A stretch of DNA of 22,431 bases from Erythrobacter sp. GTDB lineage: Bacteria; Pseudomonadota; Alphaproteobacteria; Sphingomonadales; Sphingomonadaceae. How positions within the stretch are numbered: the first letter of the stretch is position 1; every line of letters begins with the position of its first letter. The stretch is from contig NZOF01000031.1 of NCBI GenBank assembly GCA_002695185.1, positions 1 through 22,431 of the forward strand. Reading direction: 5' to 3'. Positions 4,196-20,996 of the stretch are shown piece by piece. The position numbers and the translations under genes are program-made. Under the pieces are notes generated by a model that saw nothing but the letters and a program-made list of their open reading frames with translations, was not told the DNA's origin and made no database searches.

Positions 4196-4197
4196 GG

Positions 4198-4539: not shown

Positions 4540-4551
4540 ACCTCCGTCAGG

Positions 4552-5919: not shown

Positions 5920-5929
5920 GATGATTTCC

Positions 5930-6646: not shown

Positions 6647-6648
6647 CG

Positions 6649-8013
6649 TCAATCCTCCAGGCGCGGGCCGCCATTGTGGTTCATCAGCGCCGCTTTCACG
6701 CGGGCATCAATCAGGCTGTCAACATCGCCGCCGAACAGCAGGTTCATCAGCGCCGATCGGGCACCCTGTTCCGGCGCGTCGACCTGTCCCAGCTTGTCGA
6801 GCGGGACGAGGTTGGACTGCACCGTAAGGAAATCGTCGCCCGGCAGCGAAGGCAGGTTCTCGCGGTTGCGCATTTCGCCGCGCGTCATCACACCATTCTG
6901 GCCGAAGGCGGAATAGAGCGCCGCGCGCGCCGCGCTGTCCGCCGCCATCAGCGCCTCGCGGTTGATCTCGGGATAGACCCGCTTGCGTTCGGCCACCGGC
7001 AGCAGTTGCTTTTTCACGGCCTGCTGGATGTTTGTGAGCAGCGGATTGAGCAGCAGCGTCTGCCAGCCGAGCAGCAGTTGCTCAATGCCACTGCCCCACA
7101 TCGTCTGCCCTTTGGCGGCGTGCCCGATCAGCATCGGAAGGACGCCGAACCAGCGGCAGATTTCCTCCACATCCCAGGCGCGAGACTCCAGAAGCTGCGC
7201 ATCGGCAGGGCTCATCTTGATCGGATGGAACTTGAAATCCTTTTCCAGCGGGACGATCCGACCGCGCATCGCGTCGCCCAGCCATGCATCAAAGATCGTC
7301 AGCAGGTCCGCGCGCTGTTCGGGGCTGAGCTTGGTGCTTCCCGTCTCCATCAGGCCCGCGATTTGCAGGCCGCCGCGAAAGGTGTCCGAGGCCGTCTTGT
7401 TCGCGGCAATTGCCCCGCCCAGCGTGCGCCGGCCGAACTCGATCGCCGACAGCCCCACATCGCCGCCTAGGGTCAGGCCGCGCAGGTGGAAAATCTTGTC
7501 CGCCGGCAGTTCCTCTGACTTGCCGCGATCCTGATAGATATAAACCCGCTCGTTACGGCTGTTGCGCTTGACCTGCATCAGGTCCGGCGCAAGCGGCGTC
7601 AGCGCGGTAACACGCGGCCCGAGCGTCTCCTTTTCCGCGAAGGCATTGCCCCACAGGTCCATGGCGGCCACCTGACCGGCCCAGAACTCGGCAGCGGTCT
7701 GGTCGCGGTTCGGCTCTTCGTGAACGAGCTCATAAAGCCAATGATCCTGCCGCGCTTTTCGCCCGCCATCGGACTTCTCGAACACGCCCATGCCCATCGC
7801 GCCTACGACATCCGACCTAAGCCGGACGCAGGCCCAGGCGGTCGGTAGTCCCAGCGTCGTTTTCGCCGTGACAGACTGTCCGGCGCTGTCGATCCGGCTG
7901 CCGAGAGCGATGGCCTTGCGGGTTGGCTCGTCTACAGGATCGCCGCTCAGCTTCCCATTCTGGCCGCTGCCGAACAGACGCAGGGTGGAGCCGACCCAAG
8001 TGCCGATACCCAT
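6649..8013 (-). CDS. HK97 family portal protein
   Basis: The 454-residue protein shows PF04860-type features. These are TTLGLPTAWACVRLRSDVV near residue 55, the ELPADKIFHLRGLTLGGDVG block near residue 170, GLSAIEFGRRTLGGAIAANK, LESRAWDVEEICRWFGVLPM near residue 275, and MWGSGIEQLLLGWQTLLLNP. Twelve copies form the DNA-entry vertex, the docking site for the terminase motor and the connector. Its start overlaps the large terminase stop (ATGA at 8013), so it is coupled to a gene that is currently split. This is the only portal gene in the window, so any particle using the second capsid gene would need this portal or one from elsewhere. Confidence 0.93.
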   Translation of the reverse strand: MGIGTWVGSTLRLFGSGQNGKLSGDPVDEPTRKAIALGSRIDSAGQSVTAKTTLGLPTAWACVRLRSDVVGAMGMGVFEKSDGGRKARQDHWLYELVHEEPNRDQTAAEFWAGQVAAMDLWGNAFAEKETLGPRVTALTPLAPDLMQVKRNSRNERVYIYQDRGKSEELPADKIFHLRGLTLGGDVGLSAIEFGRRTLGGAIAANKTASDTFRGGLQIAGLMETGSTKLSPEQRADLLTIFDAWLGDAMRGRIVPLEKDFKFHPIKMSPADAQLLESRAWDVEEICRWFGVLPMLIGHAAKGQTMWGSGIEQLLLGWQTLLLNPLLTNIQQAVKKQLLPVAERKRVYPEINREALMAADSAARAALYSAFGQNGVMTRGEMRNRENLPSLPGDDFLTVQSNLVPLDKLGQVDAPEQGARSALMNLLFGGDVDSLIDARVKAALMNHNGGPRLED

Positions 8014-8765
8014 CAGCCGGCCGCCTGCATCTGGGCTTTCAGACCGGAGATCAGGTCGTCCATATCGTCATTGTCGGCGGTGAGCGCCGCGACCCCGCGC
8101 GCCATGACTGCTGCGACCATGCCGTCGATCCTTCCTGTGGATTTGGCCTTGTCGAGCTTGCGGTTCCCGGCCGGGTCTTTCTTCACCACCGCGTTGGCGG
8201 CGCACATGGTCAGCACGGGGTTGCCGCCGTGCCGGACTTTCTCATTGAGGAAGTCGATCTCGATAAGGTCCATGGCCGGGGCCATGCTGATGAAGCCCTG
8301 CCCGAACGGCTCGAATGGCAATTCAATGCCGACCTTCTGCATCTGCGTTTCGAGCGTCTTGAAGCGGTGACGGTCATAGCCGATCTTGATGACCGGCACG
8401 CCCTCGCAGATCCGCGCGATGTCGTGGGCGACATATTCGTAATCAACTGCGACACCGGGCGTCGTGTTGATGAAGCCCTTTTCAGCCCAGATGTCGTAGG
8501 GCACCCGATCGCGCTTCGCGTGATCCTTTAGCGTCGCGTCCGGCTTCCAGAACCACGCCCGCAGGTGCCAGACGCCATTCCAGAGCGCGGCCAATACGAA
8601 GGCGCAAAGGTCGGTCGTCTCCGCAAGGTCGAGACCGCCGTAGACTTCGCCCTTCTCGAACGCCTCGTCATCCGTGTCGCCAATGCAGGCGCCCCAGACG
8701 CTGGGCGAGATGAACGGCGAGAAGCGGTTTACGCGCTGGTTCAGATAGAGGTTGCGGAAGCAAAC
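8013..8765 (-). pseudogene. terL: Large terminase, C-terminal nuclease half (split by element)
   Basis: The frame is open from 8765, just after an in-frame TAG at 8768-8766 inside the inserted element, to TGA at 8015-8013. It begins directly at the attachment core: CFRNLYLNQRVNRFSPF. It contains the RNase-H-fold nuclease of HK97-like terminases: YGGLDLAETTDLCAFV (first catalytic Asp), VPVIKIGYDRHRF (second), and a C-terminal KSTGRIDGMVAAVMARG segment (third). It has no start codon or ribosome binding site of its own; the first ATG, at 8594, lies inside the domain. Joined across the core to 19208-20052 it gives one uninterrupted 528-residue terminase. It is therefore reversibly split rather than decayed: I see no frameshift or internal stop. 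Confidence 0.93.
8755..8761. other. attL core (7-bp overlap)
   Basis: The 7-bp sequence cggaagc also occurs at 19208-19214 at the other junction. The terminase frame resumes here. The flanks form an imperfect inverted pair on the minus strand (AGGTTT - GCTTCCG - CAACCT), as expected for core-type sites around a tyrosine-recombinase overlap region. Confidence 0.85.
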
Positions 8766-8780
8766 CTATTAGATGGCTGA

Positions 8781-8820
8781 TTTCTGCGGTTTCAAGCCGC
8801 CGTGCGCAATTCTTGCGTAA
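8781..8820. repeat. Putative integrase arm-type sites, left end
   Basis: The left end carries tttctgcgg (8781-8789) and tgcgcaattcttgcgtaa (8803-8820). The right end carries tttctgcgg (19095-19103) and tgcgcaattgttgcgtaa (19044-19061), in the same orientation with one mismatch in the 18-mer. In the circular form they flank the core symmetrically in order. That fits arm sites bound by the integrase N-terminal domain or by the excisionase. The left copies overlap the 3' end of the integrase gene. Confidence 0.6.
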
Positions 8821-10039
8821 TTGAAGGGAGCATGATCATCGCCGCCGATCGGTCTATCGCAGTCACGCGATGTTCTCGGCCGCGAATCGCATGGGTATAA
8901 ACCCGCGCCGTGATTTCGACATTAGCATGCCCCAGCAGCCGCGACACCTCAGCCAGCGTGGCTCCTGCATCTAGCCAAGCGCTACCAGCGAAATGCCGTA
9001 GGGCGTGAAAATTTCGATTTCCGCGATCGGTCTTCGGAATGCCAGCTGCGCGCAGCAACTTATACCACTTATCATAAAAATCCTGAGAGCTCGGGTTGGT
9101 ATTGAGACTGGTCCTGAAGATCAGGCCTCGCTCATTGGCGAGCATATACGGCTCCCACTCCCTCAGGGCCGCCATCACCGGATCAGGCATCGGGACGATA
9201 CGGATACCCGAAACCGTCTTCGTCGGCCCCAAGTGGTCGTCCTCTGACAGGCTGGCATCGATCGTGATGGCCTTTGCCTCCCAGTCGATGCGGTCCGGCC
9301 GCAAACCCAGGATCTCGCCTTTGCGCATGCCGCAGAAGGCCGCGAGGTAGACGACGGCGCGCAGGAAGGCTTGCGTGCGCTGTGTCGGCATCCTCCGCGA
9401 AGTATTTTCAAACCATGCCTCGATTGCAGCGGTCACGCGCTGCATCTCTTCGATGGTGAATGTTTCGATAGGAGCCTTTGCAAGCAGGCCTATCTCCCGG
9501 CGAGCCTCACTGGCGGCGTTCCTGCCCACAAAGCCCCTCCGTGCCGCCCAAGCAAGGGCCGACGTCAGCCAGCCGAGCGAGTTATCAATCGTGCCATTGG
9601 CCATCTTCCTGCCAACCTTCGGCGTGTGGCCGGGGAACGCCCGGAAAACGACATTCGTGTCCCGCAGCCGGTCCACCTCCGAAGCGATCATCTGCCACGT
9701 CAGGTCCGTCAGTTTTACGTGGCCGATGTTCCGTGCGAAATGGTTTAGTCCGCGCGCGACATTTTTGATGCCAGCCTCCTTGCGTTCACCGCGTGCGGCG
9801 CGGGAGTATTGGGCAGCAATGTAGGCCTCCGCCAACTCGTTTAGCGTCAGAGTCTGGGCCGGTGCGATATGCGATCCAGCCTCCAACTCGTTCTCAACTT
9901 GGCGCCGGTAGTCGTCTGCGGCCTTTTTCCTGTCGAACTGCCGCGACCGATGCGCGCCAGCCTTGTCCTTGTAGCGAACGACCCACGCGGTTTTCGTCTC
10001 GCCCTTGTACGTCCATTCACGCTTGGCAACCGATGCCAT
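8792..10039 (-). CDS. int: Tyrosine recombinase / integrase of the element
   Basis: I chose ATG 10039 (MASVAKREWTYKGETKTAWV), which has a GGAGGAA site; 37 upstream in-frame codons lack one. The 415-residue protein has an N-terminal arm-binding module, then a SAM-like core-binding domain (about residues 80-190, LTLNELAEAYIAAQYSRAAR onward). The catalytic domain from about residue 205 shows all expected residues: Arg in FCGMRKGEILGLR, Lys in GPTKTVSGIR, the HALRH pair, His in LLGHANVEIT and the nucleophile in RVYTHA. Its stop lies 30 bp from the attL core, the usual arrangement for an integrase acting on its adjacent att site. It should integrate the element into terL and, with the excisionase-like protein at 18825-19031, remove it. 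Confidence 0.95.
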   Translation of the reverse strand: MASVAKREWTYKGETKTAWVVRYKDKAGAHRSRQFDRKKAADDYRRQVENELEAGSHIAPAQTLTLNELAEAYIAAQYSRAARGERKEAGIKNVARGLNHFARNIGHVKLTDLTWQMIASEVDRLRDTNVVFRAFPGHTPKVGRKMANGTIDNSLGWLTSALAWAARRGFVGRNAASEARREIGLLAKAPIETFTIEEMQRVTAAIEAWFENTSRRMPTQRTQAFLRAVVYLAAFCGMRKGEILGLRPDRIDWEAKAITIDASLSEDDHLGPTKTVSGIRIVPMPDPVMAALREWEPYMLANERGLIFRTSLNTNPSSQDFYDKWYKLLRAAGIPKTDRGNRNFHALRHFAGSAWLDAGATLAEVSRLLGHANVEITARVYTHAIRGREHRVTAIDRSAAMIMLPSITQELRTAA

Positions 10040-10057
10040 GATATTCCTCCATATGAG

Positions 10058-10084
10058 GCCCCGCCCAGCCGCGCCGGGCGGGGC
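10058..10084 (-). terminator. GC hairpin between small genes and integrase
   Basis: A perfect 9-bp inverted repeat (GCCCCGCCC / GGGCGGGGC) lies in the 52-bp gap upstream of the integrase start. No T-run follows on the minus strand. It may reduce read-through into the integrase gene when the upstream operon is active. Confidence 0.45.
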
Positions 10085-10091
10085 AGGTGAG

Positions 10092-10286
10092 TTATTGGGC
10101 GTGGGCCATATTTGCGAAGTTCTCGACCGATTCCGCGATGCGCTTGGCATGGGACACGATCCCGTAAAGCGCGTCCGTCGCGGGGCCGTCGAAGTTCGCC
10201 GCGACGATGGCCAAGCCAGTCGCCATATTGCTGATCTCCAGCGATAGATCGGCCAGCCGCTCCGCCTCCTTTTCGCTGACCGTCAT
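10092..10286 (-). CDS. Small helical protein, unknown function
   Basis: The 64-residue protein begins MTVSEKEAERLADLSLEISN and ends ESVENFANMAHAQ. It is predicted to be almost entirely alpha-helical with no membrane segment or recognised motif. Its ATG overlaps the stop of the upstream 96-residue gene (ATGA at 10286), so it is co-translated with it. It is the last gene before the integrase. In satellites, short genes at this position often encode modifiers of helper functions, but nothing in the sequence shows that here. Confidence 0.6.
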   Translation of the reverse strand: MTVSEKEAERLADLSLEISNMATGLAIVAANFDGPATDALYGIVSHAKRIAESVENFANMAHAQ

Positions 10287-10573
10287 GCGCCATACCCTCG
10301 GTCAAGTTCGATCTTCTGGAACAGGTCGATGCAGACGGCGACCTGTGCGCGCATGATGTTCAGCAGGGAACACATAGTGCCCCAGTCCTCCGCCTCTGAC
10401 AGTGGCGGCAGCTTCTCGATGATCCCCATACGGCGCGCATCAAGATCGTTCTGGCGGATCGAACACATGGCCAGTTCGGTGGCGCTGATTAAAGCGTCGA
10501 TGTGATCGGCGGCGATGCCGCCATTCATGGCCTTTTCTCTCAGGGTCATGCCTGGCTGGACTGCCTCAATCAT
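10283..10573 (-). CDS. Small soluble protein, unknown function
   Basis: The 96-residue protein starts at ATG 10573 behind a strong GGGAGG site. The longer upstream frame is antisense-like and lacks such a site. It begins MIEAVQPGMTLREKAMNGGI and has a helical middle (DHIDALISATELAMCSIRQN) and a helical C-terminus (IMRAQVAVCIDLFQKIELDR). Three cysteines are present, not in a zinc-binding pattern. It overlaps the 61-residue gene upstream by 8 bp and the 64-residue gene downstream by 4 bp, so the three form one coupled cluster. No family is recognised. Confidence 0.62.
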   Translation of the reverse strand: MIEAVQPGMTLREKAMNGGIAADHIDALISATELAMCSIRQNDLDARRMGIIEKLPPLSEAEDWGTMCSLLNIMRAQVAVCIDLFQKIELDRGYGA

Positions 10574-10751
10574 GGGCCTGCCCTCCCGTGTGGAGAATGG
10601 CCCCGGCCGCGCTGTCGCGTTCGCCGATCGACCAGATGGCCTCCCAGGCGCGCAGGTGCGCCGCGTTGGTCGGGTCAAAGGAGGGGACACCCGCGCGCAG
10701 CTTCAGGCTGGCGCGTGGCTCTCTGCTGGGCAGAGCTATCACGTTGTCCAT
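10566..10751 (-). CDS. Very small protein, unknown function
   Basis: The 61-residue protein starts MDNVIALPSREPRASLKLRA and contains FDPTNAAHLRAWEAIWSIGE. This resembles the N-terminal tag of many short phage accessory proteins and has no diagnostic motif. Its ribosome binding site is weak (GAGA). It opens the three-gene coupled cluster that precedes the integrase and lies directly downstream of a repeat-rich non-coding region, the likely place for the cluster's promoter. It could also be a leader peptide. Confidence that it is translated rests on the coupling and on the sensible composition. Confidence 0.5.
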   Translation of the reverse strand: MDNVIALPSREPRASLKLRAGVPSFDPTNAAHLRAWEAIWSIGERDSAAGAILHTGGQAHD

Positions 10752-11058
10752 GGTTCGTTCTCACTGGTTTCGGCCTCTGACAGCCTATTCCCCGTATCGG
10801 ACGGGGCGCCGGGAGGGTCAGAGCCGGCCAGTGAGACCGGTGGAACGCTTTTACCTCGAAAGGCTATTGCATGGCGCCCCACTCCCGGACATAAAGGTCC
10901 GGTCAGCGATGGACGCCAATCCACGCTGTTACATTCGGCGATCATGCCCGCGCCAACGGGTCTGATCGCCTATCACTGGTCCGGGCTCTGACACCCATTC
11001 CTACAATAGAACGATGATCCCCCGTCACGCAAGTGCCGGGCGCATCGTCGCGCCTGCG
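10752..11058. other. Structured non-coding region between tape measure and small-gene cluster
   Basis: No convincing gene is seen in these 307 bp. The region holds three copies of a 23-31-bp motif (TCACTGGtyCGGsCTCTGACa): 10761-10791 and 10973-11001 in direct orientation, and 10812-10834 inverted. It also contains a hairpin CCGGAC-ataaag-GTCCGG (10885-10902) and an 11/13-match inverted repeat (10938-10950 with 10957-10969). This density suggests operators, a small structured RNA or a recombination/packaging signal. The promoter of the downstream minus-strand cluster must lie here or be read-through from the tape measure gene. Confidence 0.6.
10761..11001. repeat. Three-copy TCACTGG...CTCTGAC repeat
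   Basis: The copies are at 10761-10791 (+), 10812-10834 (-) and 10973-11001 (+). The first two form an inverted pair about 20 bp apart. The two direct copies also share the following CC(C)ATTCC-like bases. The spacing is irregular, so they are more like protein-binding sites than iterons. Confidence 0.6.
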
Positions 11059-14000
11059 CTATTTGGCCACGCCCGCCACACTGACCGCTTGGCCGCCGCT
11101 CGCGCTGGTCACGTCGTCCAGCTTCCGGGCCATCTTGCCCGCGTGCCCGGCCGTGGCGGCATGGCCTGAATTATTCTCGCTGCGCAGCTGCGCCACCTCT
11201 TCCCGGAGCGCCCGAAGTTCCGAAGCCAGATTGTCGTTCGACGCGGTCGCCGGAGCCGCCTGTGCCGTGGTCGCCGCCGCCGCCAACGTCACCGCCTCCG
11301 GCGTCCCTCCGGTCAGGATCGCGCCGGACGTGCCGCGCGCGGCGTCCACCACGGACGAACCGCCGGCGGCGCGCGCCGTTTCCTCCAGACTGGCTGCGAT
11401 CATCGCCTTTACACGATCGAGCTCCTGCCGGCTGGTCGCGCTAAGCTCCGCCGCTTCGATGAGCGATTGCGACAGTCCGACCAACTCGCGCGCTGCGTCC
11501 TGGTCGCCGCCCTTCGCCGCGGCGGTGGCGGCATTGAACTGGCTCATGATCGCCGCGAAGCTGCCCCCGTCGGTCGGATCGGTGATGCCCCGGATCCGGT
11601 TCACTTCGTCCATGATCGTGTCGCCGACCGATGCCCAGGCGTCGCGCAGCTGCTGCGCCGCCGCCGCCGCGTCCGCTGCATCCTCCAGCGCCCATACCTG
11701 CTCCTGAAGCGGGCGCAGGCTGGCCTCCATCTGTTCCAGCTCGATCTGGCGCATGGCGACCGTCGATTCCAGCGTCTTGCCCTGAAGCTCCATGATCCGC
11801 GCCTCCAGCGTGCGCCGGTCGCGGCTCAGGCTTTCCGTCTCGGCATTGGCCTCCTTTAGCGCATCGATGCGCTTGAGGTCGTATAGCTGCTGAAGCTGGG
11901 CATATTCCTCCGCCGACGCGCCGGCCTGGTCGAAGGTCTTGCGCAGCTGCGCGAACTCCTTGTCGAGGGACTCGATCGCGAAGCCCACCGGATCGGTCAT
12001 GCTCTTGAGCTCGGAAAACACGCCCTCGAATTGCAGGGCCTTCGCTAGCTGCGCCTCCACGTCTAGGCCACCCTGGATCAGCGTCTGCGTGGACGCCCGG
12101 AGCCCCAACAGCGCGCCATCGCTGATCGCGTCGGCGATCGCGAACTTGATAGCATCCTCTGCGCCGTCCGTTCCGAAATCCTTGATGTCGGTGCGGCTGG
12201 ACCCGCCCTTGAGCTTGCCGGTGCGGCCGATGGTCGAAACCCGCCACTTGTCCTTATACTGGCCGATGGACACGTTATAGGCCCCGATGTCCGCGCCCAG
12301 CTGATCGGCGATTGCCTGCAACCCGCCCTGGATCGAATCTGCCGCCAGGCTGGCGTTCGATCGATAGGCGGCCTTGTTGCCGGCCGTGGCGATGCTGGCG
12401 GCATCCTGACCGGTGACGACAGACGTTCCCCACTTCGCCTTGCTGAACAGGCCGCTCAGCGCCCCGCCCAGGACGCCGCCGACGATGGAGCCCAGCGGGC
12501 CGGCGAAGTCGCCCAGGCCGCCCAGCGCCTTCGACAGGAACTTCTCGCCGATCTTTTCGCCGACCGCGCCACCCGCGAAACTGGCGAGGTCGCTGTTCTG
12601 CGATCCCCATAGGGCGTTGCCAGCCAGCGAGCCCACGCCGCCCGCCGCGAAGGTCTTTTGCATGATCCGGGCGAAACTGCCGTCGCCGGACGTGCCGAAT
12701 ATGGCGTCCAGCTTGTCCGTCACCTCCTTCCACCCGTTCTTGCCCACGCCCATGGCGCTCAGGCCGTCCAGCAGCTTGCCGGCCGTCCCGGACAGTCCGC
12801 CGAAGTCGCCGGTCGCGAACCCGCCCAGGATGCCCGCCAGCGCGGCGGCAGGCCCGCCCATCGCCTGCAGGGCGGATAGCTGGCGCAGATAGGTGTCCAG
12901 CAGCTGCTGCGCGCCCATCTGCTGCGCTTCCTCCAGCTGCAGGCGCTCATTCGCCTGGTCGATCATCTTTTCGCCCAGCGTGATCTCCTGCTTGCCGAAC
13001 TCAAGGTTCCGCTTCGCCGCGTCCGCCGCCATCGTCCAGACGTTGCCCTGGGCCGTCATCTTCATGTCGTTCAGCCACTGCGCCGTCTTGATAAGCTCCT
13101 TCAGCGCATCGTCTGCGGCCTTGGTCGACACCTTCGCCTTCTTCGTCTGGAGGATCAGGCCCCGATCGAGCGACGTGCCGACGCCATCAAGGATGCGCTG
13201 CGCGGATTCGTAGGTCTTGAGGTTTTCGCCTTCGACCGCGAAATTTGCGACGGCGGCAGCGGCCTCCGAAAATGCCTCTGCCGTCATGAGCCCGCCCTGC
13301 TGCAGGCTCTCCAGCGAGCGCAGCACGCTCTTGCTATCCGTGCCGCCCCCCAGGAACGAAGACATGAGGTCGCGGGTCGTCCAGCTGCCGTAGAGCGTCT
13401 TCTTGCTGCTGAACATGCCATAGAGCCCGTCGGTGAAGCCCAGCGTGCCCGCATCCTTGATCTGCGCCCGCGCCTCCGCCTGCCGCGTCTGCGCCTGGAC
13501 GCGCGCGACCGCCAACTGCGCCTGCGCAAGCCCCATCATGGCGCTGCTCTGATTGATGACCTTCCCGGTGGTGAGGTCGAGCACATTGCCAAGAATGCCC
13601 TGCGCATCGCCCACGGCGCTGGAGGAAAACTTGACCTGATCGAGCGCGTCGGAGGTGTCCATGAGCTCCGCCGCGAAGCCAGCCGCCAAGGTGCCGGCCA
13701 GCGTGAGCGCTATGCCCCACGGGCCGTTAAGGAACCGGCCGACCGAGCCCAGCTTGCCCTCAAACCCTGTGAGCGCGCCGGCCGCCTGGGGCGCCTGCAT
13801 CGCGAAGGCGCGCAGCGCAGACGTTCCGCCCACAACCTGGACGGCGAAGTCCTGCACCTGGAAGCCGAGATTTTGCGTGGCCGCGCGCGCCGCGTTGGAC
13901 GACTGGCTTAGGCTGCCATGGCCACGGGCGAGCATCATCTCAACGCGGGCCAGCTCTTCACCGCTCGCGCCGGCCGCCTGCATGACGCGTCGGGCTTCCG

Positions 14001-14595
14001 CGATTTCCTGATTGAGCCTTTCCTGCGCGGCGGCGGCGGGATCGAGCATGGCGCGCAGCTGGGCAAGCGTCTGCGCATCGCGCGCGGCGGCCGTCTCCTG
14101 CTCACGCATGGCGAACGCACCCGCCTTCACGCGCTCTTCGAACATGCGATGGGCCTGCGCCGCGGCGCGGTTCGCTGCCGTCAGCTGATCGAGCTCGGCG
14201 ATCTGTCCGCGCAGCCGGCCGGCCAGCTCGGGGAGATTGCTCTGCTCTGCGTTGAGGGCGGCGGTCTCGACCTTCAGGCGCTGTATCTCCGCGCGGGACA
14301 TGCCGAAGGTCGAGATTTGCCGCTCCATCTGGCGTGAGAGGGACTCGCCCGCCTTTTCGACTTTGGCCAGGTCTAGCGCAGTCCTAGTTGCGGCGTGGCG
14401 GTAGCTGTCCATCTGGATGACGGCGCCGCTCATGGTGACGTTTCCAGCCGCCTGTTCCAATTTTTGGAAGTCGCGCACAGCGTTTGCGGCGGTTTCGCCG
14501 ATGATGTCATCCAGCCGCGCCAACTGACCGAACGAATCGCCGAAGCCGATGTCAAAGCCGACGCCAAGGGCGGGCTGTCCGTCATTGTCGTTCAT
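11059..14595 (-). CDS. Tail tape measure protein carried by the element
   Basis: The 1178-residue protein has clear tape measure architecture. Coiled coils span about residues 60-230 (ERQISTFGMSRAEIQRLKVE onward). A hydrophobic segment follows near residues 288-310 (FLNGPWGIALTLAGTLAAGF), then a long helical middle. A Gly/Ala-rich second hydrophobic region lies near 690-715 (AGPLGSIVGGVLGGALSGLF), and C-terminal coiled coils span about 880-1010. In siphophages this protein sets tail length (roughly 0.15 nm per residue, so about 175 nm) and helps DNA entry. No tail tube, chaperone or tip gene accompanies it in the element, which implies use with a helper's tail parts. The start has only a weak ribosome binding site. 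It follows the capsid gene after a hairpin. Confidence 0.92.
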   Translation of the reverse strand: MNDNDGQPALGVGFDIGFGDSFGQLARLDDIIGETAANAVRDFQKLEQAAGNVTMSGAVIQMDSYRHAATRTALDLAKVEKAGESLSRQMERQISTFGMSRAEIQRLKVETAALNAEQSNLPELAGRLRGQIAELDQLTAANRAAAQAHRMFEERVKAGAFAMREQETAAARDAQTLAQLRAMLDPAAAAQERLNQEIAEARRVMQAAGASGEELARVEMMLARGHGSLSQSSNAARAATQNLGFQVQDFAVQVVGGTSALRAFAMQAPQAAGALTGFEGKLGSVGRFLNGPWGIALTLAGTLAAGFAAELMDTSDALDQVKFSSSAVGDAQGILGNVLDLTTGKVINQSSAMMGLAQAQLAVARVQAQTRQAEARAQIKDAGTLGFTDGLYGMFSSKKTLYGSWTTRDLMSSFLGGGTDSKSVLRSLESLQQGGLMTAEAFSEAAAAVANFAVEGENLKTYESAQRILDGVGTSLDRGLILQTKKAKVSTKAADDALKELIKTAQWLNDMKMTAQGNVWTMAADAAKRNLEFGKQEITLGEKMIDQANERLQLEEAQQMGAQQLLDTYLRQLSALQAMGGPAAALAGILGGFATGDFGGLSGTAGKLLDGLSAMGVGKNGWKEVTDKLDAIFGTSGDGSFARIMQKTFAAGGVGSLAGNALWGSQNSDLASFAGGAVGEKIGEKFLSKALGGLGDFAGPLGSIVGGVLGGALSGLFSKAKWGTSVVTGQDAASIATAGNKAAYRSNASLAADSIQGGLQAIADQLGADIGAYNVSIGQYKDKWRVSTIGRTGKLKGGSSRTDIKDFGTDGAEDAIKFAIADAISDGALLGLRASTQTLIQGGLDVEAQLAKALQFEGVFSELKSMTDPVGFAIESLDKEFAQLRKTFDQAGASAEEYAQLQQLYDLKRIDALKEANAETESLSRDRRTLEARIMELQGKTLESTVAMRQIELEQMEASLRPLQEQVWALEDAADAAAAAQQLRDAWASVGDTIMDEVNRIRGITDPTDGGSFAAIMSQFNAATAAAKGGDQDAARELVGLSQSLIEAAELSATSRQELDRVKAMIAASLEETARAAGGSSVVDAARGTSGAILTGGTPEAVTLAAAATTAQAAPATASNDNLASELRALREEVAQLRSENNSGHAATAGHAGKMARKLDDVTSASGGQAVSVAGVAK

Positions 14596-14620
14596 GGGCG
14601 TGCTTTCGCTTGCAGGTAGT

Positions 14621-14653
14621 GGCCCCGGCCTCAGGGGGAGTTAGGCCGGGGCC
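14621..14653 (-). terminator. Hairpin between capsid and tape measure genes
   Basis: A perfect 11-bp inverted repeat (GGCCCCGGCCT / AGGCCGGGGCC, 11-base loop) lies between the element's capsid stop and the tape measure start. It lacks a T-run. It parallels the hairpin at 4514-4539 next to the helper capsid gene and probably adjusts or stabilises the capsid mRNA. Confidence 0.5.
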
Positions 14654-14693
14654 ATGAGGGCGGCACGGGACACCTGCGCCCACCCTCAAGTTG

Positions 14694-15908
14694 TTATGCG
14701 ACGTTGCCGAAGTCGCCGTAGATGAACGAATTCGGTCGCTTCTTGCCCAAGCCAATTCGCTTCTCAGCCCTTATCGTGAGCTTGTTGCGCACGAAATTGT
14801 CACGGTCCTGGTCGGAGATGCGCACTTCCGTCTGCATCCGGTCATAGTAGGCCGCGCCACGCTTGAACGGCCCAACAAGGAACTTGTCGATATTCATGGC
14901 CTTGGTCGGCACAACAGGCTGGCCGAAGAGGGTGGCGCGGTTCTGGCCCTGCGGATTGGCGATGATATAGCCGCCCGCTGCATCCTTGGTCAGAAGGAGG
15001 CGCAGCCAGTCGGACGGGTGGATGACGATGCCGTCCGGCTCCACGTCGGTTAGGGCCGCCTGAAGGAGCGCAAGCCCGATCTGGTCAATCATCGTCTGGC
15101 CTGCCACGGTGAACGGGGCGGCATAGGCGGTAGCGCCAACAGCCAGCCCGGTCAGATGCTCGCCGGTGCCGTCGCCATAGATCAACTCGGCTTCTTCGTT
15201 CAAATCGAGGCCGTAGCGCAGTTCACCGTCGATCAGGCCCTCCAGCTGCGGCACGTCGTCAATGATCTGGCGGGACGCTTCGACCCAGTGCGCGATGGTC
15301 CTGATCTTGGTGTCCTTCAATTCCCACTTGTAGGACGATTCCGGCTTCAGCGCGCCTTCTGCGACAACCCCGGCCGCGTTCGTCCGCTCGGTCTGAACCG
15401 GCGTTTCAACGACGCCGGTTTCCGTATTGATGATGGTCAGCAGATCCCGGACCACCAGCCGACGCTGCGGCATGGATACCACTTCATCGCGCTGCGGCAC
15501 GATCAGGTCGCCAGCCGAGGCGCCGCTGTCGATTGCCTTCATCGCGCACCGCATTTCGCGCGGCCGGTCCTGCGCCTCCATGTCCACATAGGCTTTGAAG
15601 CGTTCGGAATCGGTGAACTGGCGGCCCCATGCCGTGGCCCCCGGATCGCCCAGCATCGAAACGGCCCCGCGCTGGCCTTGCGCCATCTTCTGCGACAGTT
15701 CGGTGATCTCGCTGCGCAATTCGCCCAAGCGCTCATCGGTGGACTTCTCGCCCTCCTTCACCTTTTCCAGCGCCTTGGTGACGGTGGCGATATGCTCATC
15801 CAGCACGTCCTCGACGCTCTTGGCGTTCTTCGTTTTGACGATCGGGATATCCAGATGGGCGCTGGCGCGCATGGCGGCGCGGAACTTCAACAGACGGTCG
15901 GTAAACAT
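14694..15908 (-). CDS. HK97-fold major capsid protein carried by the element
   Basis: The 404-residue protein starts at ATG 15908 behind GGGAG. Residues 1-75 form a charged, helical delta/scaffold domain (SVEDVLDEHIATVTKALEKV) unlike that of the helper capsid protein. From ITELSQKMAQ onward the two proteins align through the whole HK97 fold. The element has RTIAHWVEASRQIIDDVPQL where the helper has RTIAHWVPVSRQAMDDIPQL, DGIVIHPSDWLRLLLTKDA against DGIVIHPTQWANIELTKDA, and a nearly shared RISDQDRDNF segment. It is therefore a divergent paralogue, not a recent duplication. The delta domain governs scaffold behaviour and shell size in HK97-type capsids, so this protein could form a shell suited to a 10-kb genome. 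Confidence 0.93.
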   Translation of the reverse strand: MFTDRLLKFRAAMRASAHLDIPIVKTKNAKSVEDVLDEHIATVTKALEKVKEGEKSTDERLGELRSEITELSQKMAQGQRGAVSMLGDPGATAWGRQFTDSERFKAYVDMEAQDRPREMRCAMKAIDSGASAGDLIVPQRDEVVSMPQRRLVVRDLLTIINTETGVVETPVQTERTNAAGVVAEGALKPESSYKWELKDTKIRTIAHWVEASRQIIDDVPQLEGLIDGELRYGLDLNEEAELIYGDGTGEHLTGLAVGATAYAAPFTVAGQTMIDQIGLALLQAALTDVEPDGIVIHPSDWLRLLLTKDAAGGYIIANPQGQNRATLFGQPVVPTKAMNIDKFLVGPFKRGAAYYDRMQTEVRISDQDRDNFVRNKLTIRAEKRIGLGKKRPNSFIYGDFGNVA

Positions 15909-15909
15909 G

Positions 15910-16527
15910 TTATTTCACTCCCATGAGAGTTGCGATGTTTCGGGTGGATTGCGCCAGGCGCTCGGCGACCTGCGCCATAGCCTGATCGTCTTTTGCTTCG
16001 TCGGCGGCGCGAAAGGCGGCGGCGGCGGCGGCCTTGGCGCGGCGACCGGACAGGCCGATCTCCCGCAGGTGATCCTCAAGCTCGCGGACATTCGCCACGG
16101 ACTTGACCTGCTCGACATAGGTGAGAGGGTTGGAGGGGATCGCGACCAACGAGATTTCCCATAGGTCGGCCTTTGTGATGACCTTGCCTCTGGCTTCGCG
16201 CTGGAGATAGCCGACCGACAGGCCGGTGAGGGCGCCAGCTTTCGCAAGCGCATACGCCTCTTGCCCGTCGGGCGCGCTCAGCGCCAACGTGCCGGATGCG
16301 TGAAGCCCTTTGCTGTTTTCCGCCAAGCTATCCCACTTCCCAACAGGGCGGGATTTATCGTGGTGCAGCAGCATGGCGACGGGCCGGGATCCGCGAAGGC
16401 TCTCGGTAAATGCGCCGGGCGCGAACGTCTCGCCATGGCTGTCGACATTGCCATAGCCAGCCGCAAGGCCGGATATCTGACCCTCGGCCAGCTTCTTCAA
16501 ATCTAGGGGGTGGTAAGCGTGTTCCAT
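15910..16527 (-). CDS. HK97 family prohead protease carried by the element
   Basis: This 205-residue protein is shorter than the helper protease but keeps the full core. GQISGLAAGYGNVDSHGETF is near residue 16, the catalytic-His block VAMLLHHDKSRPVGKW near residue 50, the catalytic-Ser block ALTGLSVGYLQRE near residue 98, and DLWEISLVAIPSNPLTYVE near residue 120. A short Ala-rich helical tail follows. Its stop is one base from the capsid start, so the two form a matched protease-capsid pair. That pairing is needed because the protease must recognise its own capsid's delta domain. The ribosome binding site is weak. No portal gene precedes it, unlike in complete phages. Confidence 0.92.
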   Translation of the reverse strand: MEHAYHPLDLKKLAEGQISGLAAGYGNVDSHGETFAPGAFTESLRGSRPVAMLLHHDKSRPVGKWDSLAENSKGLHASGTLALSAPDGQEAYALAKAGALTGLSVGYLQREARGKVITKADLWEISLVAIPSNPLTYVEQVKSVANVRELEDHLREIGLSGRRAKAAAAAAFRAADEAKDDQAMAQVAERLAQSTRNIATLMGVK

Positions 16528-16666
16528 ATGCGCAGTCCGACAGCTCGCCCGAAGGCGTTTTCTAAGCCGTCGCCGGCGCGCATCTCACGCGGTAGGCGGG
16601 GTGTCGTCGCACATCCCATGCGTTGACGCGCCAGCGATAGCAAGAACATGGCGGAAACGAAAGGCC

Positions 16667-17068
16667 TTAGTGCGCCTTCGACGTTTCTTCGATTGCGTCG
16701 CCATTCTGGTCCACGAGTGTTGCCAACCCTCGCAACCAGTGCGCGGCACCAGCCGCGCCGCGCGTCCGGGCGACCCGCTCCACAAGGGTGTTGCCGATTG
16801 TTACGACTGCGATGCGCTCATCCACGCCCGCGACCATGAGCGAATTGATAAATTCATGCGCCTTGCGGGCTAGATCGACCATCTCCCTCTCGTCCATGGA
16901 CATGGGATCGCGCGGCCCCGCCACCTCGATCTTACCAGCCTCGACCCGGAGGCCCGCGGCAAGCGCCGAATGGGTTACTCCCCCTGCTTCGATGAGCTCG
17001 CGGGCAAGATTTGCGATGGCAGTGCAGAAATTTCGGATGGCCTCTGGCTTGTGTTCGTCATTCAGCAT
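16667..17068 (-). CDS. Element protein upstream of protease, unknown function
   Basis: The 133-residue protein starts at ATG 17068, chosen for its AAGGAG site; the longer upstream frame crosses the non-coding site at 17151-17228. It begins MLNDEHKPEAIRNFCTAIAN and is largely helical (LARELIEAGGVTHSALAAGL, FINSLMVAGVDERIAVVTIG). It ends WLRGLATLVDQNGDAIEETS. The middle segment (THSALAAGLRVEAGKIE) could be an HTH-like element but is not convincing. It is the first gene after the candidate packaging site and precedes the protease by about 140 bp. Capsid-size determinant, packaging adaptor or regulator are all possible. I do not recognise it. Confidence 0.65.
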   Translation of the reverse strand: MLNDEHKPEAIRNFCTAIANLARELIEAGGVTHSALAAGLRVEAGKIEVAGPRDPMSMDEREMVDLARKAHEFINSLMVAGVDERIAVVTIGNTLVERVARTRGAAGAAHWLRGLATLVDQNGDAIEETSKAH

Positions 17069-17150
17069 TGATCGTCTCCTTTTCGTAGGAAAAATGGGCG
17101 GTTGGGAAAGGTGAGGGGGTGGCCAGCGCGGCGCGGCGGCCCCAAGAAGC

Positions 17151-17228
17151 GAAAACTGTATTAGCAAACACTTTCGGGTCGGGAGCGGTGTCCTATCGGA
17201 GGGCGCTCCAACTTTGCGACCACCCCCC
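17151..17228. other. Candidate packaging (cos-like) site of the element
   Basis: The stretch shares an ordered set of blocks with 20541-20622, next to the helper's small terminase: GC(A/G)AAAA(T/C)TGTATTAGC at the start, GGTGTCC 29-30 bp later, and CTTT(N)CGACC followed by a C-run at exactly the same offset (54 bp from GTATTAGC). Spacing is kept while the bases between have diverged, as in a protein-binding site under selection. On the minus strand the C-run is a G-tract, reminiscent of cos ends of 3'-overhang siphophages. The alternative is a shared late promoter/operator (TACAGT here, TACAAT in the helper). Confidence 0.6.
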
Positions 17229-17240
17229 ACCCTGGGCGGC

Positions 17241-17447
17241 TCAGGCCGGCCGGACGGCTTCGACCATCGCCTTGACGACACGGCGCGCCTTGGCCATCCC
17301 GACACGGCTGGCCAGCTGTTCGAAACAGATCATCATGAGCGTCGTCGTGGCTCGCGCCTGGTCGGCGCCCTCGTCGCCAGCGGCCATGATGAACGCATCG
17401 TGCAAGCGGCGAGCTTCAAGGCAAAGCTTCTCGTTCTCGGTCATCAT
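17241..17447 (-). CDS. Small helical protein coupled to antirepressor, unknown
   Basis: The protein has 68 residues from ATG 17447, overlapping the antirepressor stop (ATGATGA); ATG 17444 is an alternative one codon later. The sequence MMTENEKLCLEARRLHDAFI, then ATTTLMMICFEQLASRVGM, is all helical, with a basic C-terminus (AKARRVVKAMVEAVRPA). It is too short for an HTH regulator of known type but could pair with or modulate the antirepressor. It ends just before the candidate packaging site. No family is recognised. Confidence 0.6.
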   Translation of the reverse strand: MMTENEKLCLEARRLHDAFIMAAGDEGADQARATTTLMMICFEQLASRVGMAKARRVVKAMVEAVRPA

Positions 17448-18184
17448 GCGCCCGCCTTCAACTCTGCCAGCCGCGCCAAGCCTTTCGGCGTCACCACGAC
17501 CTGTTCGACCCACTTGTCGGGCCGGCCGCGCACGGTGATGGTCGTGCCCTTGTGCTCCAGCAGCTTGGCTTCCAGCTTTGCGCCGAACGCGACGAAGTGG
17601 CCGCCTTCGCTGCGCCGGTATATCCAGTGATTGGCCTCCATCCACGCGAACAGGCGGCGCGGCTGGGCGTTCAGCGCCTTTGCCGCGTCGGTGATGCACA
17701 GGGAGCCGCGGGCATCGGTCAGTCGATCGAGCGCTTCGGCCTTCGGAGATAGCTTTGCGATCTGCTCGCTGGCATTCATGGTCCGGCTGGTATGCTCCAA
17801 TAGCAGGCGCTGGAGCGTCGCCGGATCGTTGAGGTCCAGCGACGGAGCGGGGCTGCCATACTGCCCGGTCCGCAAGACGGTCGGCACAACCTCTGCTGTG
17901 ATCCACTTGCGCACACGGTATGGCAGGGTGCCGGGCTTCATCGCGCCCCGGCAACGCAGCATCAGCGTCAGCAGTCCCGCGAGACTGACGATCGTGGCAT
18001 CCGATCCCGACCCTAGGTTTAACCGAGACTTCTCGGTGTCATCCAAACGGCTGGCCGCATCGCTGGGATTGCGGATGCCGAGCAGGCCGCAAGCGTCGGC
18101 AAGGACGAACCACGGCTGGCCGCCCTGGTCGCTGATCGCCCTGATAGCGTGGCTCTCGAACTGGAAAGGGATGATGTCATTCAT
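17444..18184 (-). CDS. ant: Phage antirepressor (BRO-N and KilAC domains)
   Basis: I chose ATG 18184 (MNDIIPFQFESHAIRAISDQ), which overlaps the stop of the replication gene; 62 codons upstream in frame are shadow sequence. The 246-residue protein has a BRO-N domain at about residues 5-105: PWFVLADACGLLGIRNPSDA, then LTLMLRCRGAMKPGTLPYRV and RKWITAEVVPTVLRTGQYG. Its C-terminal ANT/KilAC domain at about 140-240 contains ITDAAKALNAQPRRLFAWME, NHWIYRR and a GLARLAEL end. Such proteins relieve repression, usually by binding phage repressors. No CI-like repressor is visible in the element, so the target may be the helper's repressor or a gene outside the window. It is co-translated with the replication gene, so it is made with the early genes. 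Confidence 0.9.
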   Translation of the reverse strand: MNDIIPFQFESHAIRAISDQGGQPWFVLADACGLLGIRNPSDAASRLDDTEKSRLNLGSGSDATIVSLAGLLTLMLRCRGAMKPGTLPYRVRKWITAEVVPTVLRTGQYGSPAPSLDLNDPATLQRLLLEHTSRTMNASEQIAKLSPKAEALDRLTDARGSLCITDAAKALNAQPRRLFAWMEANHWIYRRSEGGHFVAFGAKLEAKLLEHKGTTITVRGRPDKWVEQVVVTPKGLARLAELKAGA

Positions 18185-18828
18185 GACGGTCTCCGTCGTC
18201 CGTTGGCTTTGAGGTCGGTGACGATGGCAAGGCGGTCGCGCGCCCATGCGGCATGGGTCGCGGACAGGCCCTCGCGTCCCAGGAACATGGATAGGGCTTC
18301 CTGCCAGTGGTCTAGGTTCGTGCTGTCGCCAGTGAGGCCGACAAAGGCGCGCTCTGTATGCGCCACCCATTCCAGAACAGCGGGGTCGCTCGAATATCCC
18401 CCTGCACCCCCTGAAGATGCTTTAGCATCTGAAGGGGAATGGTTGTTCTTTGGTAGTTTGGGTGTCTGTCTGACACGGGTAGGCGTCTGTGGGGCACCGG
18501 TGCCTGTCTGACACCCGTGTCCCTCTGACACCTGTGTCTGTGAGACACCCCCCACAGCATTTCGGGGGTGGACGTTGTAGGCGGTGCCTTTGCCCGGAAC
18601 GGCTCGCCGGGTGATATGCCCAGCCGCCTCAAGCGCCTTGGCTGCCCGCTGCACCGTCCGGCGAGCCATGCCGGTCTTCTCTGCCATGTAGGCGATCGAA
18701 GGCCACGCATTGCCCTTGGCGTTTGCCATGAAGGCGAGCAGCACCAGAACCGCGCGTTGATGCTGGTCTAGGCCCGGCGCGTCATAGGCGGCGCGGATCA
18801 GCCCGAAGCCCGACTGCGCCGCACTCAC
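18181..18828 (-). CDS. Winged-helix replication initiator of the element
   Basis: The protein has 215 residues and begins with GTG 18828, which overlaps the stop of the excisionase-like gene. Residues 1-90 form a helix-turn-helix/winged-helix domain of the phage replication-protein type: LDQHQRAVLVLLAFMANAKG, WPSIAYMAEKTGMARRTVQR, AAKALEAAGHITRRAVPGKG. Residues 95-130 are low complexity (SQTQVSEGHGCQTGTGAPQT), because the DNA there is an array of palindromic iterons. The C-terminus (about 150-215, VLEWVAHTERAFVGLTGDST) may contact replication partners. The design, an initiator gene that contains its own binding sites, is that of lambda O. No helicase or primase gene accompanies it, so host or helper replication proteins must be recruited. 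Confidence 0.85.
   Translation of the reverse strand: MSAAQSGFGLIRAAYDAPGLDQHQRAVLVLLAFMANAKGNAWPSIAYMAEKTGMARRTVQRAAKALEAAGHITRRAVPGKGTAYNVHPRNAVGGVSQTQVSEGHGCQTGTGAPQTPTRVRQTPKLPKNNHSPSDAKASSGGAGGYSSDPAVLEWVAHTERAFVGLTGDSTNLDHWQEALSMFLGREGLSATHAAWARDRLAIVTDLKANGRRRPS
18421..18547. other. Candidate replication origin with five iterons
   Basis: Five 13-bp interrupted palindromes of the form TGTCnnnnnGACA lie at 18463, 18484, 18501, 18518 and 18535 (start positions). The spacing is 21, 17, 17 and 17 bp; three are perfect in the arms and two deviate slightly. A comparatively AT-rich stretch (18421-18461) flanks one side, as the unwinding element does in lambda ori. The array lies inside the initiator gene. 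An alternative is an autoregulatory operator. Confidence 0.75.
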
Positions 18829-19031
18829 TCACCGCCGGCTGCGCGCGCCGCCGCCTCCTGCGCCTCGAAATGCTTGGCGAGGGTCGACTTCCGGGCGCAA
18901 ACCCTCGCGCCGATCTTGAAGGTCGGGAGGTGTCCGCGATCATGCATTTGAGCGACCTGTTTAGGGCGCAGTTTCAGATGCGCGGCGATCGCCTCTACCC
19001 CATAAAGCAGGTCGGTCTCTTCGTCGATCAT
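18825..19031 (-). CDS. AlpA/excisionase-like DNA-binding protein
   Basis: The 68-residue protein begins at ATG 19031 with an AGGAG site. DLLYGVEAIAAHLKLRPKQV, then AQMHDRGHLPTFKIGARVCA, is the winged-helix pattern of MerR/AlpA/excisionase-type proteins: a recognition helix, then the 'LP-x-FKIG' wing. An Ala/Glu-rich helix follows. It is the first gene inside the right end of the element, directly next to attR and the right arm sites. An excisionase that also regulates the operon would sit here, as AlpA/Vis-like proteins do in P4-type satellites. It overlaps the replication gene start (GTGA), so excision and replication genes are co-expressed. Confidence 0.82.
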   Translation of the reverse strand: MIDEETDLLYGVEAIAAHLKLRPKQVAQMHDRGHLPTFKIGARVCARKSTLAKHFEAQEAAARAAGGE

Positions 19032-19043
19032 GTGTATCTCCTT

Positions 19044-19103
19044 TGCGCAATTGTTGCGTAAATGAGCGGCGGGGCCGCCCGAGAAACTGGCGGTTTTCTG
19101 CGG
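19044..19103. repeat. Putative integrase/excisionase arm-type sites, right end
   Basis: The stretch holds tgcgcaattgttgcgtaa (19044-19061) and tttctgcgg (19095-19103), matching the left-end copies in the same orientation. The 18-mer overlaps the leader of the excisionase-like gene, immediately upstream of its ribosome binding site. Bound protein there could also repress that gene. Confidence 0.6.
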
Positions 19104-19141
19104 GTTCGCGGGGATAGAGAGGGGAGCGCGCCAGAAGCACG

Positions 19142-19163
19142 AAAAAGGGGCCGGATGGCCCCT
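19142..19163 (-). terminator. Rho-independent terminator at element boundary
   Basis: Reading on the minus strand, AGGGGCC-atcc-GGCCCCT forms a perfect 7-bp stem with a 4-base loop, followed at once by TTTTTC. It lies between attR and the first element gene. It should stop transcripts that arrive from the helper's small terminase and terL N-terminal half. This insulates the element and also cuts the helper late operon while the element is integrated. Confidence 0.8.
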
Positions 19164-19185
19164 AAGTGTCAGTAATATCTATGTT

Positions 19186-20052
19186 TTATTGGCTCGGATA
19201 AAGAACCCGGAAGCCATTCTCCGCCGATGGCATGCGCGCCGCCTTCTCGGCCGCCGCCAGCAATTCAACCTTGGACCGGAACGTGCCCAGCGCCGGGTTC
19301 GCCGCCTTGTGCGCCTCGGGATCGAGCAGTTCAGCCTTGGGATCGGCAGCATAAAGCCGCACGACGATCTTCGGGTCTTTCGAGCGAAGCGCATCGTCGA
19401 TCTTGATCGACAGCATGTCCGCATCAGTTGGAGCCTGCGTCGATATGATGAGCCGCAGCGCATCGTCATATGCGCCGGATGCCGTCTCGATTGCTTCCAC
19501 GAAGTCATCGAGCGGCCCACGCACCTGGCCCAGCTCGTCAAGGATCGCCAGCACCGGGGACAGGCCGTGCGCCGTGCCAGCCTCCGCCGATAGCGCCTCA
19601 TAGGTGACGTTCAGCGCCAGCCCGATCAGCGTCTTGGCCGACGGGATCACCCGCACCAGCACCTTCAGCTTCGGGTTCAGCTTGACCATCTTCCAGGCCA
19701 GATTGAACACCAGCGCGGCCTGCTTACGCGACCGCGCGCCAGATACGATCTGGCTATTCAGTCGGGCCTCCGGGCCGACGAGATGAACGAGCAGCAGGCA
19801 GGCGATGAGGGCAGTCTTGCCGTTCTTGCGTGCCATGCTGAGGATGCCCTCAGTTGTGACCGCAGGATTGTCATAGACCGACCAGATGAAATCTTTCTGG
19901 AAAAGGTCCAGGCGGATCGGCTGCCCGACCAGCTTACCCTCGGGAACCAGGCAATATTTCTCGATGAACGCGATGGCCCGGTCGCCGCGCGTCTTGGGCT
20001 TATGATCCCCTTCGAACGTCGGCGGCGGGATCGCGCCGCGCGGCAGGCTCAC
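19186..20052 (-). pseudogene. terL: Large terminase, N-terminal ATPase half (split by element)
   Basis: The 288-codon frame starts at GTG 20052 and overlaps the small terminase stop (GTGA). It contains the packaging ATPase: Walker A-like MARKNGKTALIACLL near residue 92, Walker B VLAILDELGQV near residue 168, and coupling motif RLIISTQAPT near residue 200. The genuine sequence runs to ENGFR at the core (19208-19214). The last six codons (VLYPSQ, then TAA at 19188) come from the element. The nuclease domain is at 8013-8765. A stable ATPase-only protein might still be made from this frame and could have a dominant effect, but it could not cut DNA. Confidence 0.93.
19208..19214. other. attR core (7-bp overlap)
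   Basis: This is the second copy of cggaagc. On the minus strand, terL sequence GAGAATG precedes the GCTTCCG core and element sequence GGTTCTT follows it. Replacing the element side with the left-junction CAACCTC restores the terminase frame (GFRNLYLNQ). Confidence 0.85.
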
Positions 20053-20519: not shown

Positions 20520-20540
20520 CGGCGGGCCTCCCGGTCCAGA

Positions 20541-20924: not shown

Positions 20925-20996
20925 ATGGCGAGCTCCCCATACATGAAGCGCCCGCAAGCCACTCGGCTCCGGGCGCAATTCACGACATTGATGATT

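Follow-up and report, generated by a model that had tools for sequence, protein, structure and literature searches.

Several classes of mobile elements form the background to the locus described here. In regulated gene integrity, or active lysogeny, as with the prophage in comK, an intragenic element restores the interrupted gene on excision; capsid-forming phage-inducible chromosomal islands (cf-PICIs) encode packaging genes of their own (portal, terminase) and take only tails from the helper; and the phage-inducible chromosomal island-like elements (PLEs) reside in the bacterial chromosome, with the virulent phage ICP1 as helper. Here we analyze a 22,431-bp stretch of an Erythrobacter sp. 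contig (NZOF01000031.1; hereafter the window), in which an element of 10,453 bp interrupts the HK97-type large-terminase gene (terL) of a prophage at codons 280–282. We put at roughly 80% the probability that this element is a helper-embedded phage satellite, predicted to excise on induction, to restore terL and to be packaged by the restored helper motor. The closest described systems are the helper-embedded PICIs (HE-PICIs) of Enterobacteriaceae, which are embedded in late genes of their helpers at 14 sites, the terminase included, and for which the survey, in the parts that we draw on, reports phage surroundings among Enterobacterales only (PMC10111431; this paper and PMC12987554 are cited throughout for parts of their content). 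Furthermore, the tape measure protein of a PLE of Vibrio cholerae replaces that of the helper in chimeric, shorter tails, as found by experiment (PMC12987554), and putative tape measure genes are noted for some cf-PICIs (PMC12987554, Extended Data Fig. 10 legend). In the open-licence literature, as distinct from subscription papers and preprints, we recognized no such sphingomonad or alphaproteobacterial elements or satellite tape measures beyond these two papers.

The insertion is precise. The joined flanks form a single frame of 528 codons (845 + 742 nt), and the two halves of terL are adjacent on the profiles PHROG 9 (183–447 and 448–674) and PHROG 2699 (13–70 and 72–305) and abut on the HK97 TerL structure, PDB 6z6d (residues 8–275 for the N-terminal half and 274–508 for the C-terminal half). 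The sequence CGGAAGC lies at both junctions, where a sequence-only reading of this DNA, which described a precise and reversible insertion framed by the heptamer, had placed it (Table 1). As a bare 7-mer it is unremarkable, with 8 copies in the window vs. 7.07 expected, and in an unregistered search for any shared word near both junctions 7 bp was attained by 62 of 200 random pairs; we therefore rejected it as stand-alone evidence. In the register of the terL frame, the 7-bp block over codons 280–282 is attained by 8 of 2000 random pairs, and the imperfect 26-bp repeat that encloses it (18 matches) by none of 5000. The N-terminal half of TerL runs for 288 residues to a stop contributed by the element and, because of this stop, the element end, although it resembles terL codons, supplies no replacement for them. 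Moreover, the site is intact in relatives of the helper. With the N-terminal half alone as the query, the best 80 of 118 relatives were kept, and in all 80 loci the C-terminal half follows after one unmatched codon, that is, terL is uninterrupted; the nearest among them (L123, L124) are 95–96% identical in the N-terminal and 88–91% in the C-terminal half. The uninterrupted terL peptide pattern, which the same reading had singled out as the mark of an unoccupied site, is present in 16 viral stretches.

All assigned genes of the element are co-oriented with terL. From the side of the small-terminase gene (terS), they encode an AlpA-like protein, an O-like replication initiator, a Bro-N/ANT protein, a 133-aa protein, a prohead protease, a major capsid protein, a tape measure protein, three small open reading frame (ORF) products and a tyrosine integrase, so that the integrase and the excisionase-like gene occupy opposite ends, in agreement with what had been claimed for them. 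Among the element ORFs scanned against Pfam and PHROG, none matches a portal, terminase, adaptor or tail tube protein. The combination of an integrase and a replication gene without a complete packaging and tail set is that of phage satellites in general; a prophage would possess its own portal, terminase and tail genes, whereas the element has capsid, protease and tape measure genes alone. Thus, the sequence-only interpretation is partly supported. The support extends to the exactness of the insertion, the unoccupied site in relatives and the presence of recombination genes; reversible excision and the role of a switch are no more than plausible. What goes beyond that interpretation is that satellites within helper late genes, terminase genes among them, have already been described (HE-PICIs, PMC10111431), and that the insert encodes a capsid protein, a protease and a shorter tape measure and carries a further copy of the segment that precedes the helper terS; given these genes and this copy, the element is probably a satellite that would need the very motor which it splits, and it is predicted to depend on the helper motor because none was found in the element.

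Comparison with the HE-PICI of type 11capE from E. coli NRG857c, the sequence record of which was used as the reference (L217), reveals both likenesses and differences. The window element lies within a late gene of its helper and runs in the same direction as that gene, and it has a Bro-network gene and a late-gene zone with a capsid gene, as HE-PICIs do. Like them, it combines an integrase and an AlpA-like gene with a Bro-type gene and its own capsid gene, and it carries a putative counterpart of their helper-like cos site; a doubled motif flanks the attP core and integrase groups track sites in both cases, and two satellites within one helper are likewise known among HE-PICIs (PMC10111431). 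In contrast, the window integrase matches that of 11capE only in a 30-residue catalytic segment (E 0.02), and the 11capE branch has a length of 9.86 in the integrase tree. The integrase gene lies here at the 3′ end, beside the C-terminal half of terL, and points outward, whereas in 11capE it lies at the 5′ end and points inward; the AlpA-like gene is at the end opposite the integrase gene, whereas in HE-PICIs the two are neighbors and the integrase gene adjoins the N-terminal fragment of the split gene. The doubled attP motif of HE-PICIs (TGTATTGC twice) is absent from the window, which has another doubled motif with another spacing; as a control, the former motif was found at both ends of 11capE, with a third, poorer match elsewhere. 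Furthermore, an O-like initiator is present here and no primase was found, the window element adds a protease and a tape measure, and the host, where named, is not enterobacterial. Given the differences in integrase, gene order and attP motif, the element is best read as working like an HE-PICI yet belonging to a separate lineage that also brings determinants of head and tail size.

The other known systems are more distant. With PLEs the element shares a tape measure of its own, the role of which in the tail is experimental for the PLE (PMC12987554) and predicted for the element; it differs in being embedded in the helper and in also supplying a capsid protein and a protease. With cf-PICIs it shares an encoded capsid protein and, as regards some of them, a tape measure gene (PMC12987554). 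The difference from cf-PICIs, taken from their generally known traits, is that the window element lies inside the helper and has no detected portal or terminase. The analogy with comK-type active lysogeny, drawn in the sequence-only reading, holds for the logic, that is, an intragenic element that would restore a gene on excision; it does not extend further, in that the gene interrupted here is part of a second mobile element, on which the insert itself would rely.

The satellite tape measure protein (1178 aa) is 500 residues shorter than that of the helper (1678 aa, phrog_7740), which is encoded on a second contig (L002). In a MAFFT alignment the two resemble each other at both termini (45 of columns 1–100; 72 and 71 of 100 in the two final complete blocks), and it is in the middle that the satellite protein is shorter. 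For the C-terminal end, blastn gave 73% over 704 nt; blastp gave the N-terminal part only. No relative of the satellite tape measure was found in 50,697 phage records at E 1e-5. The tape measures of five further satellites were verified by PHROG.

A segment of the element and the helper segment between the HNH gene and terS (Table 1) give a local alignment score of 62, compared with 43 for the best of 60 shuffles, and their core, GGACACCG...GCTAATACA, is present in exactly two window copies, one per segment, and in none of 100 shuffles; this pair lies beneath the blastn cut-off used for the other composites and was recovered by local alignment. Upstream of terS, G026 and eight phages with this type of terminase have similar sequence. 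Moreover, a stretch of the helper terS region is shared in seven of eight element/helper pairs, the window included: 88 bp at 87.5% in G014, 53 bp at 92% in G021, 90 bp at 80% in G022, 86 bp at 78% in G006, 444 bp at 72% in G007 and 56 bp at 86% for element 1 of G017. In the window, G014, G021 and G017, less than 50 bp separates the end of the stretch from the start of terS (assigned by position in the last two); the stretch extends into the 5′ end of terS at about position 9,175 in G007, and lies 0.3–0.5 kb before terL in G022 and G006, where the terS start is without assignment. A cos-pattern scan of viral contigs yielded 20 stretches with one match each; the pattern is too strict and misses both window copies as well as G014 and G007, and the scan is therefore uninformative about pairs. 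The shared segment is likely a packaging signal, namely a putative cos site.

We propose that, in the integrated state, the helper would yield only a TerL fragment, so that packaging would be blocked. On induction, the element would be excised by the integrase and the AlpA-like protein; excision would restore TerL, and TerS and TerL would cut the cos copy of the free satellite circle. The satellite DNA would enter a head built of satellite capsid protein on the helper portal, and the satellite tape measure would set a shorter tail made from helper parts. Given that the capsid protein, protease and tape measure would set the size of head and tail, the expected product is a small head with, here, a shorter tail. 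Scaled from 95 residues per roughly 10–15 nm (PMC12987554), the 500 residues of the window pair would correspond to some 50–80 nm. Packaging would not begin until the satellite leaves, and the element would hold the key to the motor that both genomes require. We infer that such a timing lock fits better than mere insurance, because the element carries no terL backup and leaves uninterrupted those genes that it carries; several relatives (L021, L085 and G017) carry a capsid gene while interrupting one. As precedents, the 11capE satellite of E. coli excises after induction (PMC10111431), and data are available on the satellite tape measure in Vibrio (PMC12987554).

Relatives of the integrase, 22–43% identical, were collected from genome and viral contigs. 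With a minimum of 330 aligned residues, the collection comprises 54 distinct loci, of which L014 and L016 (Ochrobactrum, Brucella) were set aside; for 30 of the 54, one ORF near the 3′ end of the integrase gene was scanned against PHROG, and in 22 it matched a head, packaging or tail family. An upstream half was obtained for 18 of the remaining 52 loci and for none of the other 34; L011, L054 and L055 were excluded, as what matched upstream is, or may be, the capsid gene of the satellite itself, and L071 and L086 were paired on G017. In 15 of the 52 loci, both halves of one late gene and an in-register block are present (controls, 0 to 15 of 2000). The interrupted genes encode the capsid protein (L003, block of 11 bp; L021 and L085, 3′ part, 11 and 8 bp, with C-terminal fragments whose match spans just 26 residues; a pair of elements, 15.2 and 15.9 kb long, in a single gene of G017, 8 and 14 bp, with 1 of 2000 random pairs equal for element 1), a phrog_15-type TerL (L013 and L051, 12 and 15 bp), TerL near codon 37 (L024 and L066, 7 bp each), TerL at a different codon (L019, 8 bp, profile 595–790 and 791–977) or at nearly the codon used in the window (L079, 8 bp), the protease at one profile codon (L017 and L076, 8 and 14 bp) and the portal (L052 and L087, 8 and 11 bp). 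Five of these loci (L013, L017, L019, L021 and L024) come from named-strain genome records, all of sphingomonads; L021 is from Sphingomonas ginsenosidimutans KACC 14949 and L024 from Sphingomonas sp. LC-1. The elements measure 7.3–11.0 kb in 13 relatives. A doubled arm-type motif, of which the window holds two copies and shuffles none, recurs in the family with a period of 10–11, about 130–190 bp inside one end and 48–56 bp inside the other; of 16 elements, 13 have it at both ends and L052 has it at a single end, whereas neither end of L019 or of element 2 of G017 has it (0.02–0.16 matches expected per stretch). The family was detected in at least 3 of 397 family genomes at E 1e-60, with four candidates scored per genome.

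The integrase tree comprises 45 sequences (43 relatives, the window and 11capE; L088 was omitted for a stop and ten others by name). Integrases that share a site cluster with support of 100/99 or better (L024 with L066, L013 with L051, L017 with L076, L021 with L085). The sister of the window integrase is L011 (100/99); L071, with the same capsid site, has a separate place, and L079, which shares the terL region of the window element, is not its sister.

Several observations weigh against the reading as a mobile, helper-dependent satellite. Neither an excised circle nor a repaired terL was observed, a search of viral contigs did not recover the exact attP junction, and the right junction is present in the window only, as the second contig stops inside the element. 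The AlpA assignment is weak (Table 1). The arm-motif pattern was written after earlier motif results had been seen, and in the comparison that preceded it random pairs were equal in 40 of 60 cases for L019, 28 of 60 for L066 and 12 of 60 for L087. The cos reading is based on place and conservation only, and the terS-upstream window ranks first in two of eight pairs: windows of the helper that score as high number 6 of 109 in the window pair (all six within the homologous capsid gene) and 9/346, 18/319, 0/428, 1/488, 0/288 and 32/437 in six other pairs, and element 2 of G017 does not stand out (46/430); the higher-ranking windows, among the top six listed per pair, lie in capsid or tape measure genes or in the G017 sister satellite. 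Finally, the satellite tape measure is shorter than that of the helper in two pairs (1178/1678 and 1535/1850 aa), nearly equal in one (675/686) and longer in three (830/813, 870/853 and 906/686), so that the notion that satellite tape measures are always shorter was rejected; judging from these genes, tape measure replacement does appear to recur, and shortening is not universal.

The first of these observations is what would be expected if the satellite were unable to excise and the helper were a defective phage. We regard such a dead insertion as unlikely: the genes are open, the attachment (att) block and both arm motifs are kept, the same lineage is found in the second contig at 98.8% identity, the 133-aa protein is listed in seven contigs, and matching ends are kept in 15 relatives. 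It is considerably less probable that a second prophage was inserted in the first and has lost most of its genes, although phage structural genes and an outward-pointing integrase are found in prophages as well (PMC10111431) and the two elements in G017 are comparatively long. The 13 relatives are compact. Their 111 ORFs (minimum 95 aa, single strand, simple caller) include, by Pfam, 9 Phage_capsid matches (and 2 capsid_4 and 2 gpT-like), 3 S78 proteases, 3 TMP_3, 1 TMP_2, 3 Phage_TAC_11, 1 HK97-gp10, 6 Bro-N/ANT, 1 D5_N and 1 DUF5906; neither a terminase nor a portal is among them, a negative that for the relatives rests on Pfam. Furthermore, satellite capsid proteins (11 of 33 sequences in the tree) cluster, with 5 changes vs. 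9.1 by chance (1 of 500 shuffles), and the copy of the helper terS-upstream segment has been retained in the window element. The satellite capsid of the window groups with that of S. ginsenosidimutans (92/91, below the star of the tool) and not with that of its helper. Given this clustering and the separation from the helper protein, the capsid genes seem to form lineages of satellites, with more than one capture, rather than to be a fresh copy from the present helper.

An even less probable explanation is that the element is a cassette of the phage itself that toggles between a large and a small form of the virion. The position in cis, the orientation shared with the late genes and the presence of both size determinants would suit such a cassette, whereas its absence at the same codon in all 80 relatives kept, the related elements in other genes and in helpers with the phrog_15 type of terminase, and its own initiator and antirepressor argue against it. 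Least probable of all is a chimera of metagenome assembly, which the origin of the window as an uncultivated IMG/VR record and the missing right junction of the second contig might suggest, and which is contradicted by codon-exact joins with att and arm motifs and by the same plan in the five named-strain records.

The helper-embedded satellite thus remains the preferred reading, and its relatives bear on a wider one. It is possible, at somewhat less than even odds, that their integrases form another clade of satellite integrases, independent of the first and alphaproteobacterial, with a tropism for helper late genes, that its members downsize the whole virion by combining a shell and a tail ruler of their own with the portal and tail of the helper, and that the interruption of terL without a backup is here a lock that ensures a free, cos-bearing circle before packaging. 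The data indicate that embedding in a helper is no peculiarity of enterobacteria: it is also practiced by an integrase lineage that is unrelated in sequence and follows a different attP grammar. The lineage reaches across sphingomonads and viral contigs of unknown host and targets terL, portal, protease and capsid genes. The five verified cases in named-strain records open the questions of tail shortening, head shrinking and excision before packaging to testing.

Table 1. Coordinates of the satellite, its genes and sites, and the flanking helper genes in the 22,431-bp window.
Feature	Position	Strand	Evidence or remark
Embedded satellite, 10,453 bp	8755..19207	-	In-register block at both ends
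att identity block, integrase side	8755..8761	+	In-register block
att identity block, AlpA side	19208..19214	+	In-register block
Doubled arm-type motif, integrase side	8803..8824	+	2 window copies, 0 in shuffles
Doubled arm-type motif, AlpA side	19044..19065	+	2 window copies, 0 in shuffles
Tyrosine integrase, 3′ end toward terL C-terminal half	8792..10039	-	PF00589 4e-22, phrog_1 2e-56
64-aa ORF	10092..10286	-	Homolog in L054
135-aa ORF	10283..10690	-	Homolog in L054
61-aa ORF	10566..10751	-	Homologs in L054, L019
Satellite tape measure protein, 1178 aa	11059..14595	-	Homolog of helper tape measure; phrog_1538 only at E 0.004
Satellite major capsid protein (HK97 type)	14694..15908	-	PF05065 2.6e-50; PDB major capsid proteins
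Satellite prohead protease	15910..16527	-	PF04586 2.4e-24
133-aa all-helical protein, directly downstream of cos-like copy	16667..17068	-	18 further homologs; model pLDDT 90
Satellite copy of helper cos-like segment	17129..17240	-	Alignment, core motif
Bro-N/ANT antirepressor-like protein (start codon unsure)	17444..18370	-	PF03374 3e-22, PF02498 9e-11
Replication initiator (O-like)	18181..18828	-	phrog_270 7e-15
AlpA/excisionase-like protein	18825..19031	-	phrog_18541 (no function given) 4e-8, phrog_66 6e-4
Helper TerL, C-terminal part	8013..8754	-	PHROG, 6z6d
Helper TerL, N-terminal part, stop from element	19186..20052	-	PHROG, 6z6d
Helper small terminase TerS	20049..20519	-	phrog_5601 4e-36
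Helper cos-like segment between HNH gene and terS	20520..20631	-	Alignment, core motif
Helper HNH endonuclease	20622..20978	-	phrog_2323 6e-21
Helper portal	6649..8013	-	phrog_12 1e-91
Helper prohead protease	5930..6652	-	phrog_80 1e-61
Helper major capsid protein	4552..5919	-	phrog_10 7e-79
Helper head-tail adaptor	3279..3881	-	phrog_442 1e-28

The second contig (L002, 28,746 bp) matches positions 326–18657 of the window, includes the left junction and extends the helper; the left end of the window diverges from it, with 86.5% identity over 326–1911 and no match before 326. A tRNA scan found none, an Rfam scan gave no match, and a defence-system search with seven small proteins was without a match. 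The homologs of the 133-aa protein come from metagenomes and Sphingomonas and are of nearly constant length. The gene takes the same place relative to cos as terS does; the confident model of the protein has no fold match in the PDB or among viral models, and the idea of a small-terminase analogue is not supported.

Further observations concern individual relatives. In the viral contig G017 (L206–L208; IMGVR_UViG_2643221868_000001), two satellites at two codons split the helper capsid gene into three pieces, and in L079 (1410–1417 and 11205–11212) a distant integrase (29%) is found at almost the same terL codons as in the window. The protease site of L017 and L076 may be convergent with the HE-PICI site C:CLP_protease:110 (PMC10111431). 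In the contig G016 (L227, L228), a related integrase is accompanied by a pair of tape-measure-like genes, of 1350 and 1324 aa, that are separated by about 13 kb. In L054 (6120–6776), three small ORFs 86–95% identical to those at 10092–10751 of the window adjoin an integrase that is only 35% identical, and the integrase therefore seems to be exchanged as a module.

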